From a bacterium (GTDB lineage Bacteria > Patescibacteriota > Saccharimonadia > Saccharimonadales > Saccharimonadaceae): 50,485 bases of DNA. Positions 24,235 through 28,917 of this stretch are shown in pieces; position 1 is the stretch's first letter, and each line of letters opens with the position of its first letter. The notes under the pieces were generated by a model, which saw nothing but the letters and a program-made list of their open reading frames with translations, did no database searches and had not been told where the DNA came from. The position numbers and the translations under genes were made by a program. The stretch is from positions 1 through 50,485 of the forward strand of contig DAIDKB010000037.1 in NCBI GenBank assembly GCA_027451105.1. The letters run 5' to 3'.

Positions 24235-24310
24235 GCCGCTGTAGCTCAGCTGGTAGAGCGGCGCTTTCGTAAAGCGTAGGTCTCCGGTTCAAATCCGGAC
24301 AGCGGCTCCA
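24235..24310 (+). tRNA. tRNA-Thr(CGT)
   Basis: 76 nt with encoded CCA. Acceptor GCCGCTG/CAGCGGC, discriminator T, anticodon stem GCGCT/AGCGT, anticodon CGT at 24268-24270. The U discriminator matters for the T-box ahead of thrS, whose TGGA would pair with UCCA. The next ATG is 8 nt after the CCA. Confidence 0.95.
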
Positions 24311-26842: not shown

Positions 26843-26890
26843 AGGCTATATAAGGATAGCAAAAGAGAGGTGGCGACGCAAGAATATGCT

Positions 26891-27085
26891 ATTATATTAC
26901 CTGGGTGATGACGTAACCTAACCACTTACCGAACCCCGCGAAGAGGAACGCGCTAAATACCTCCAACAAGTGTCCATCCCGTGGAGGGTGGGAAGTCCGG
27001 TGGAACCGCTCGCCTTGCGAGTCCGAGACATGCGATCAATAGATTCAAGCATTAGTTTGAATGTAAAAATCGCATGTTTTTATTT
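26891..27085 (+). promoter_or_regulatory. Probable T-box riboswitch (tRNA-Thr sensing) ahead of thrS
   Basis: A -10-like TATTAT (26891-26896) starts a leader of about 200 nt. A basal stem (GATG 26908-26911 with CATC 26976-26979, then CACTT/AAGTG) resembles a short Stem I; the adjoining internal loop contains ACC, a Thr codon, at 26917-26919. The T-box core TGGAACC is at 27002-27008, followed by a 5-bp stem CTCGC/GCGAG. It is flanked by outer pairings (26996-27001 with 27024-27030), as in an antiterminator. A competing terminator follows: ACATGCGAT (27029-27037) pairs with ATCGCATGT (27069-27077), then TTTTTATTT. TGGA is complementary to the UCCA end of tRNA-Thr. The specifier position is not settled. 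Confidence 0.68.
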
Positions 27086-27105
27086 AACTAAAAAGGAGTA
27101 TACCT

Positions 27106-28917
27106 ATGAATGACGATCAACTACACGCAATGCGCCACAGCTTGGCACATATTACTGCTGCCGCCGTGCAGCGTTTGTGGCCAACCGCTAAATTTGGGGT
27201 TGGGCCAGTTGTCGAAAACGGTTTTTACTATGATATTGATTTGGGTGAGATTAATATTTCGGAAGCAAATTTTCCAAAAATTGAGAAGGAAATGCGCGGC
27301 ATTATTAATTACGGCGACGATTTTGAGCGTTTTGAGATGCCAATTGATCAGGCGATTGACTGGGCTAAGCAGAACAGCCAGCCGTATAAGGAAGAGCTAC
27401 TTAATGATTTAAAGCGCTCGGGCACAACTGTCGCCAAAGACCTTGATGTCAATGAGCTTGGTCTAGCTGCAACTGGCGACTCGGCAGTCGAAAACGTCTC
27501 TTTTTACAAAAACGGTAACTTTGTTGATTTATGTCGTGGCCCACACGTCGCTAATACTAAGGATGTCGGTGCTTTTAAGTTAATACGAGTTGCCGGTGCT
27601 TATTGGCGCGGCAAAGAGACCAATCCGCAGATGCAGCGGCTCTACGGTGTCGCTTTTGCGACTCAGGAAGAGCTGGATGCCTATTTGGAACGACTTGAAC
27701 AGGCTAAAGCCCGTGATCATCGTCGCCTCGGTAAAGAACTTGATCTTTACACGATGTCGCCACTGGTCGGGGCTGGTTTGCCGCTATTTACGCCACGCGG
27801 TACGGTGCTGCGGGACATTTTTGCGCAGTATTCAAACCAGTTACGCCAAAGTCGCGGCTTTACTAAAGTTTGGACACCGCATATTACCAAGACCGACCTG
27901 TACGAAACCTCTGGCCACTGGGCAAAGTTTGGCGATGAACTGTTTTTAGTAACCAGCCAAGAGACTGACGACAAGATGGCTCTAAAGCCGATGAACTGTC
28001 CGCATCACACGCAGATTTATGCCAGCCGTCCGCGTAGTTATCGCGATATGCCAGTGCGCTTTTTGGAGACTACAACAGATTATCGTGACGAGAAAACCGG
28101 TGAACTGGGTGGTCTAAACCGCGTGCGATCGCTGACCCAAGACGATAGTCACGTATTTTGTCGAACTGATCAAATTGAAAGCGAGATTAATAATTTACTT
28201 GCTAGCGCCCGTGAGCTTTACGGTGCAATTGATATGCCACTAAGGGTTAGACTGTCTTATCGAGATGATAGTGATGGCTATTTGGGTGAGATGGCTTTAT
28301 GGCAATCGGCTCAAGATCAATTAAAAGCGGCCGTAATCGCCAATGAACTGGAATATTTTGAGCAAGACGGCGAAGCGGCTTTTTATGGTCCAAAAATTGA
28401 CTTTATGGCGACAGATGCGATTGGTCGCGAACACCAAGTTGCGACTGTCCAGCTGGATTTTGTTCAGCCGGGCCGTTTTGGGCTAACTTATACTGATAGC
28501 GAAGGTAACTCGCAGACACCGGTTATGATTCACTGTGCCTTGCTTGGTTCAATCGAGCGTTTCTTGAGCGTCTTAATCGAGCATACGGCTGGTTGGTTCC
28601 CATTCTGGTCAGCTCCGGAACAGATTCGGATTTTAACAATCAACGATACTTTATGTGATTACGTCGATGAAATAAAAGCTATTTTAGATGGCATAGTGCT
28701 GATGAAGCCGGTTAAATATAACGAACTTCGCTACACAGTTGATGAACGTAATGAATCACTTGGTAAAAAAATTCGCGAGGCCACCAGCTGGAAAATTCCC
28801 GTGCAGTTGATTGTTGGCCAAAAAGATAAAGACGCTCACGAGGTTAGTGTGCGAACGCAAAAAGGCGAGGAGAAGGTGTCGCTTGATAATCTTGGCGATT
28901 ACCTAACTAGTTTGTAG
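27106..28917 (+). CDS. thrS: Threonyl-tRNA synthetase lacking the TGS domain
   Basis: 603 aa with AAGGAG 9 nt before the ATG. The protein begins directly in the N2 editing domain (MRHSLAHITAAAVQRLWP, with HxxxH; later DLCRGPHV holding Cys and His), so the N1/TGS domain of the E. coli enzyme is missing. The class II catalytic core follows: motif 2 around RFLETTTDYRDEKTGELGGLNRVR, zinc ligands in MNCPHHTQIY and later His residues, and motif 3 in IHCALLGSIERFLSVLIEH. A C-terminal anticodon-binding domain (IRILTINDTLCDYVDEI...YTVDERNESLGKKIREA) ends it. Expression is probably controlled by the T-box leader. Confidence 0.95.
   Translation: MNDDQLHAMRHSLAHITAAAVQRLWPTAKFGVGPVVENGFYYDIDLGEINISEANFPKIEKEMRGIINYGDDFERFEMPIDQAIDWAKQNSQPYKEELLNDLKRSGTTVAKDLDVNELGLAATGDSAVENVSFYKNGNFVDLCRGPHVANTKDVGAFKLIRVAGAYWRGKETNPQMQRLYGVAFATQEELDAYLERLEQAKARDHRRLGKELDLYTMSPLVGAGLPLFTPRGTVLRDIFAQYSNQLRQSRGFTKVWTPHITKTDLYETSGHWAKFGDELFLVTSQETDDKMALKPMNCPHHTQIYASRPRSYRDMPVRFLETTTDYRDEKTGELGGLNRVRSLTQDDSHVFCRTDQIESEINNLLASARELYGAIDMPLRVRLSYRDDSDGYLGEMALWQSAQDQLKAAVIANELEYFEQDGEAAFYGPKIDFMATDAIGREHQVATVQLDFVQPGRFGLTYTDSEGNSQTPVMIHCALLGSIERFLSVLIEHTAGWFPFWSAPEQIRILTINDTLCDYVDEIKAILDGIVLMKPVKYNELRYTVDERNESLGKKIREATSWKIPVQLIVGQKDKDAHEVSVRTQKGEEKVSLDNLGDYLTSL

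Follow-up and report, generated by a model that had tools for sequence, protein, structure and literature searches.

Introduction

T-boxes are commonly regarded as a Gram-positive device. Nearly all of them carry a K-turn at the base of Stem I, and those that contain Stem II also possess the IIA/B pseudoknot. The Stem II arm with its S-turn is common among T-boxes, is missing in glyQS and is not a defining feature; the double T-loop that binds the tRNA elbow is a class I trait, which is missing from T-boxes with a short Stem I and is not defining either. Transcriptional T-boxes generally require a long, elbow-binding Stem I, whereas those with a short Stem I need Stem II and act on translation, and a specifier in the apical loop occurs only in short Stem I's and is known from translational actinobacterial T-boxes (PMC7583486).

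In the actinobacterial ileS T-box (Nocardia farcinica, Mycobacterium; Sherwood 2015, reviewed in PMC7583486), a short Stem I carries the specifier at its tip, in the apical loop, above a K-turn; the IIA/B pseudoknot, Stem III and a UGGN antiterminator-type element are present as well. This T-box acts on translation, recognizes tRNA-Ile and needs the S-turn arm of Stem II. The transcriptional thrS T-boxes of Bacillota (RF00230 class I) have a Thr specifier, a UGGA bulge and a terminator/antiterminator switch, together with a long Stem I bearing the elbow-binding double T-loop and usually Stem II; they can occur two or three in tandem (PMC12452182). The glyQS T-box of Bacillus and Geobacillus is transcriptional, with a long Stem I and with neither the Stem II arm nor the IIA/B pseudoknot.

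The bacterium studied here is a tiny parasite from a phylum of reduced, host-dependent bacteria. We know of no earlier evidence on how Saccharibacteria tune their synthetase genes, and we found no description of a T-box in Saccharibacteria, TM7, Patescibacteria or the candidate phyla radiation, in a search that left out most subscription papers and does not prove priority. Here we analyse the thrS leader in a 50,485-nucleotide stretch of Saccharibacteria DNA (the window). This single leader shares with the actinobacterial ileS T-box the parts listed above, but it ends in a terminator, is directed at Thr and has no Stem II arm. With the Bacillota thrS T-boxes it has in common the gene, the Thr specifier, the UGGA bulge and the switch, without their long, elbow-binding Stem I or Stem II. 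Like glyQS it belongs to the transcriptional type without a Stem II arm, but unlike glyQS it has an ultrashort Stem I and has kept the pseudoknot. A sequence-only reading of the window had proposed a T-box in front of thrS, an interpretation supported by the conserved TGGAAC, the terminator, the Thr codon and covariation in relatives. We are highly confident that the leader is a compact, transcription-controlling T-box that senses tRNA-Thr, with the binding of the tRNA, the sensing of its charge and the regulation itself being inferred.

Results

Structure of the thrS leader

The leader spans positions 26903 to 27081 and measures 127 nt from Stem I to the antiterminator (Table 1). The Shine-Dalgarno sequence AAGGAG is located between the terminator and the thrS ATG at 27106, and the putative -10 box lies 7 nt upstream of Stem I. 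A TATTAT-like box is also present in the thrS upstream regions of relatives; a formal scan of the region upstream of thrS returned no sigma-70 promoter.

Table 1 Features of the thrS leader, its locus and the related elements of the same genome.
Feature	Position	Strand	Details
tRNA-Thr (CGU)	24235..24310	+	3' end UCCA; ARAGORN
Putative -10 box	26890..26895	+	TATTAT; inferred from position and a similar box in relatives
Ultrashort Stem I	26903..26936	+	Outer helix GGGU/ACCC (26903-26906 with 26933-26936), inner helix GUAA/UUAC (26913-26916 with 26926-26929)
K-turn-like elements	26907..26932	+	3-nt bulge GAU (26907-26909); GA (26910-26911) opposite GA (26931-26932)
Apical specifier loop	26917..26925	+	CCUAACCAC; 9 nt; specifier ACC 26921-26923, then purine A26924
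IIA/B-type H pseudoknot	26937..26964	+	CGCG (26937-26940) with CGCG (26949-26952); GAGG (26943-26946) with CCUC (26960-26963)
Stem III and flanks	26968..26994	+	AAGUG (RRRNG) 26968-26972; UCCAUCC/GGGUGGG (26973-26979 with 26986-26992); AA 26993-26994
Antiterminator	26995..27029	+	A1 GUC-C-GG / CC-GA-GAC; A2 GCUCGC/GCGAGU (27008-27013 with 27017-27022)
T-box bulge	27001..27007	+	UGGAACC; UGGA complementary to UCCA of tRNA-Thr
Intrinsic terminator	27028..27081	+	ACAUGCGAU/AUCGCAUGU; inner hairpin and U-run; 5' strand overlaps the A1 3' strand
thrS, threonyl-tRNA synthetase, regulated gene	27106..28917	+	TIGR00418 equivalog, 600 bits against a cut-off of 384
ileS leader L316	G000:C19, ileS ATG at 116608	-	AUC specifier, UGGU bulge

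Stem I terminates at the specifier loop, and the distal double T-loop for the tRNA elbow is absent. Judged by sequence only, the base of Stem I meets the K-turn criterion of T-boxes. In the thrS leaders the spacing from Stem I to IIA is 0 nt, which leaves no room for the S-turn arm of Stem II, and the IIA and IIB helices of the window are only 4 bp each. Stem III forms 7 contiguous pairs in the window and is missing from many related leaders; its RRRNG and AA flanks are given as a T-box motif in PMC7778990. In the thrS leaders of another order (L165, L167, L174, L184, L185), the 3' strand of the terminator (GGUGG/GGCGG) has the Stem III region (CCACC/CCGCC) and not A1 as its pairing partner, and the terminator would thus sequester Stem III, a different competition.

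Conservation and covariation among related leaders

We fetched 80 Saccharibacteria thrS loci and kept 55 leaders, including that of the window, 51 of which entered the alignment. Most of the fetched leaders have a common layout, in which a 4-bp outer helix, a 3-nt bulge with GA/GA, a 4-bp inner helix and a 9-nt loop are followed by the pseudoknot, an optional Stem III, the antiterminator with UGGAAC and the terminator. All 8 pairs of Stem I were formed in most leaders in the first parse, and a second leader subtype (AAUAGCCAAGGUGGAACC) has a shorter outer helix. Both GA dinucleotides of the K-turn are invariant or nearly so across the alignment, GA/GA being a requirement of the 55-leader parse.

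The 21 pairs of the named structure are formed in 94.3% of the cells of the 51 leaders, compared with 22-45% when the partners are slid by 1-3 columns. Changes on both sides of a pair occur at 16 of the 21 pairs and in 149 cells, against a shuffled mean of 41.5, and none of 500 shuffles was as high. These shuffles ignore the kinship of the leaders, and better evidence comes from the slid control and from how varied the pair types are; those at the base of A2, for instance, include GC, GU, UA and AU. In Stem I, the outer helix is paired in 93.9% and the inner helix in 99.0% of cells, with both-side changes at all 8 pairs somewhere among the leaders. The IIA helix is paired in 93.6% of cells, and a mean of 6.16 of 7 IIB positions are paired in subtype 1, versus 5.27 with partners swapped between leaders (maximum 5.63; 0/500 swaps reach the observed pairing). 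For the antiterminator, A2 is 97.5% paired with both-side changes in all 4 counted pairs, and A1 is 88.6% paired with covariation in its outer part. The covariation in the antiterminator that the sequence-only reading had named as a check on related leaders is observed, and Stem I and the pseudoknot covary as well.

Folding of the single sequence gave z = -3.7 for the whole leader relative to shuffles, which speaks against a chance fold. Without the terminator, the minimum free energy of the leader is no better than that of shuffles (z 0.1) and the predicted structure differs from the T-box fold. The main evidence for the element is its conservation and covariation in relatives.

The same comparison bears on the possibility that the leader is a relic, an inherited fold that still holds a terminator and has become unresponsive in this genus since Stem II and the distal part of Stem I were lost. 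The parts that grip the tRNA are indeed gone, and several relatives have deleted the whole leader, but compensatory changes persist in the helices, and the specifier and the bulge are strictly conserved across families, even in classes that are likewise without Stem II, so we hold this explanation to be very improbable. In about ten relatives (L025, L027, L030, L032, L033, L036, L041-L043, L060), thrS is leaderless and the entire T-box is missing, with a -10-like box immediately before the ATG. Such leaderless thrS genes in close relatives are a clean loss and do not contradict the T-box reading.

Specifier and tRNA discriminator

The loops were picked in the parse by pairing, with the codon not used as a criterion. 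In all 54 leaders with a 9-nt loop, positions 5-7 hold a Thr codon (ACC in 41, ACG in 7, ACU in 6) and position 8 is a purine, so that the conserved Thr codon which the earlier reading had proposed to look for in relatives was found. That reading had correctly noticed ACC triplets in the window and misplaced them in an internal loop; the specifier ACC occupies the apical hairpin loop of the very short Stem I. ACC is the codon read by tRNA-Thr(GGU).

A Thr triplet in front of thrS could also belong to a leader peptide with Thr codons, through which the ribosome would control attenuation. The window does contain ATG ACG TAA at 26908-26916, and the leader ends in a terminator. No Shine-Dalgarno sequence precedes this ATG, though, 9 of the 55 leaders have another base at its T, which lies in the K-turn bulge, and an open reading frame of at least 8 codons with two adjacent Thr codons exists in only 2/55 leaders. 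We regard ribosome-mediated attenuation as practically ruled out.

On the tRNA side, 41 tRNAs were collected from the genome of the window. All three tRNA-Thr of the genome (GGU, UGU and CGU) have U73 and the 3' end UCCA, which matches the UGGA of the bulge. The CGU species was called in the window itself by ARAGORN, confirming the TCCA end and U discriminator claimed earlier for this tRNA. In the same genome, tRNA-Ile has A73 and ends in ACCA, and tRNA-Asp has G73 and ends in GCCA. Its two tRNA-Gly(UCC) genes carry unlike discriminators, A and U.

Antiterminator and terminator

UGGAAC is present in all 55 leaders, which were found by means of this motif. The sequence-only reading had identified TGGAACC and placed it at 27002-27008, one base to the right of its real position, 27001-27007. 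In the thrS T-boxes L006, L039, L065 and L078, the bulge reads UGGAACA instead of UGGAACC, and in L039 and L065 the A1 helix is re-paired as UUUCGG/CCGAAA.

Positions 27028-27036 and 27069-27077 form the terminator stem, 9 bp without a mismatch, and T's come after it. This terminator had already been described, with its T-run ahead of the ribosome binding site, and can be read directly in the sequence. A terminator hairpin with a U-run occurs in 55/55 leaders, and in 53 of them it occupies the outer A1 3' strand in full (3 nt). A rule-based promoter and terminator scan returned nothing for the leader; the loop of the terminator contains an inner hairpin that exceeds the length permitted by the rule.

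The two states exclude each other on paper. The folding energy is -12.1 kcal/mol for the antiterminator element and -21.4 kcal/mol for the terminator (-25.1 with its basal extension). When the antiterminator is forced, the terminator stem is reduced from 12 to 7 bp and the U-run is displaced from the hairpin. The terminator state is favoured over the antiterminator state by only 2.4 kcal/mol, and plausibly 4 bp to the tRNA 3' end plus stacking are enough to tip this balance. The overlap between antiterminator and terminator is merely 2-5 nt in this lineage, which we counted against the T-box reading, along with the lack of an RF00230 hit in the window, the single-sequence fold without the terminator, and the missing Stem II S-turn and distal Stem I, by which known T-boxes hold the tRNA.

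Related T-boxes upstream of other genes

In members of the T-box family with other SPECIFICITIES, codon and bulge both differ according to the gene. The ileS T-box of the window's own genome (L316) holds AUC in the same type of loop, a UGGU bulge, a Stem II-like arm and a terminator. Elsewhere in the class, ileS leaders combine AUC with UGGU, or with UGGA in a few cases (L170, L194, L196, L199), and aspS leaders combine GAC with UGGC, the gene being a non-discriminating AspRS (NF003483). GAC and UGGC are found in L204, L205, L212 and L312, of which L204, L212 and L312 precede non-discriminating aspS. In other Patescibacteria, glyS T-boxes (L305, L310, L311, L314) have UGGA and, where the specifier is readable (L311, L314), GGC. 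The Saccharibacteria ileS T-boxes (L316; L206, L207, L216 and others) resemble the thrS form in their short Stem I, apical specifier and antiterminator/terminator logic, but between their Stem I and the IIA/B pseudoknot they retain a Stem II-like GGAAGAAA... arm, which the thrS form lacks. Two genomes of another class have thrS T-boxes (L297, L306) without Stem II or the pseudoknot, in which Stem I to antiterminator measures ~85 nt. Ile-type T-boxes (AUC) also lie directly ahead of non-synthetase genes (L182, L209, L215, L219), namely those of DNA-3-methyladenine glycosylase I (tag), a DUF5680 protein and two unassigned proteins.

The joint variation of codon, bulge and gene is predicted by T-boxes and by neither a leader peptide nor a ThrRS-binding operator, and it is the strongest test. 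The operator would mimic the anticodon arm of tRNA-Thr, as in the E. coli thrS operator, and ThrRS would repress its own gene. Although the gene is thrS and the hairpin loop holds a Thr triplet, this triplet is the codon ACC and no anticodon (CGU/GGU), and the loop has 9 nt, not 7. The sister elements at ileS, aspS and glyS carry their own codons, and an operator leaves both the terminator and the match of the UGGN bulge to the discriminator unexplained. An operator of this kind can hardly be the right explanation of the leader.

Distribution and detection by covariance models

R1, a covariance model built from leaders of the thrS form, scores a single element at 81 bits in the window's genome and matches 127 of 295 Saccharimonadia genomes and, in the phylum, 68 of the 380 genomes sampled. 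The strong R1 loci that we inspected all contain thrS (45/45), whose start lies at most 110 bp after the element in 41 of the 45. A few of the weakest matches in the class are chance or ileS T-boxes. The weak matches L163, L192, L193, L195, L197, L198 and L202 were rejected as chance, with no thrS downstream and no T-box layout. The pattern GGTGGNAC had 92 sites in the window's own genome versus 106 in the reversed control and is uninformative alone.

No T-box was among the Rfam hits in the window at the gathering score, which comprised tRNAs, RNase P, tmRNA and 16S rRNA. At E up to 10, Rfam gave only a chance osmY match on the thrS leader, so the RF00230 search that the sequence-only reading had suggested came back without a hit. 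Over the window's genome, the best RF00230 score was 9.8 bits, within a tRNA gene and thus chance. This failure is explained by the homologous thrS leader of a same-genus genome (G009): RF00230 matches the whole of that leader with 37.5 bits (E 2.4e-7), below the cut-off. The gathering score of 93 bits is an annotation rule, not a biological feature. Some relatives have thrS leaders that RF00230 matches independently. At an E threshold of 1, matches of RF00230 are present in 48 of the 147 sampled Saccharimonadia genomes, none over the cut-off.

With E limited to 0.01, RF00230 matches 59 of 192 genomes in the phylum; five of these exceed the gathering score (L277, L278, L279, L280, L281), which indicates that ordinary T-boxes exist in Patescibacteria too. 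Genome G344 contains nine RF00230 matches. The ileS T-box of the window's genome (L316) is matched by neither RF00230 nor R1 at E up to 10, and since both models miss it, the distribution counts are lower bounds. TBDB relied on RF00230 and an actinobacterial class II model (PMC7778990); given these two models, it probably missed leaders of this type.

Discussion

The observed codon and discriminator matches, together with the anatomy of known T-boxes, allow a mechanism to be proposed. The anticodon of tRNA-Thr(GGU) would pair with ACC in the apical loop of Stem I, and the K-turn and the IIA/B pseudoknot may turn the RNA so that it runs back alongside the tRNA. An uncharged tRNA-Thr could pair through its 3' UCCA with the UGGA of the antiterminator bulge. 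The docked 3' end is expected to hold the outer A1 helix and to remove about 5 basal pairs of the terminator, so that the U-run would be separated from the shortened hairpin and thrS would be transcribed. The 3' end of a charged tRNA-Thr presumably cannot dock, in which case the full terminator would form and transcription would stop. Binding of the tRNA, sensing of its charge and the direction of regulation are all inferred here from known T-boxes.

Without an elbow-binding distal Stem I or a Stem II arm, the thrS form is pared down to a minimum, which is unusual among transcriptional T-boxes. In a phylum of reduced, host-dependent bacteria, these leaders join a transcription terminator to a Stem I that is ultrashort, with Stem II missing. 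The family escapes standard annotation, the Rfam cut-off annotating 0 of 147 sampled Saccharimonadia genomes. We lean, with real reservations, towards the view that Patescibacteria have phylum-wide, mostly unannotated transcriptional T-boxes with a hairpin-loop specifier, and that their thrS branch, without the Stem II arm or the elbow-binding end of Stem I (in L297 and L306, at ~85 nt, also without the pseudoknot), still senses charging and includes the smallest working T-boxes. These leaders make directly testable how little RNA is required for sensing the charge of a tRNA, and they represent a natural tRNA-responsive part that is usable in the new genetics of Saccharibacteria.
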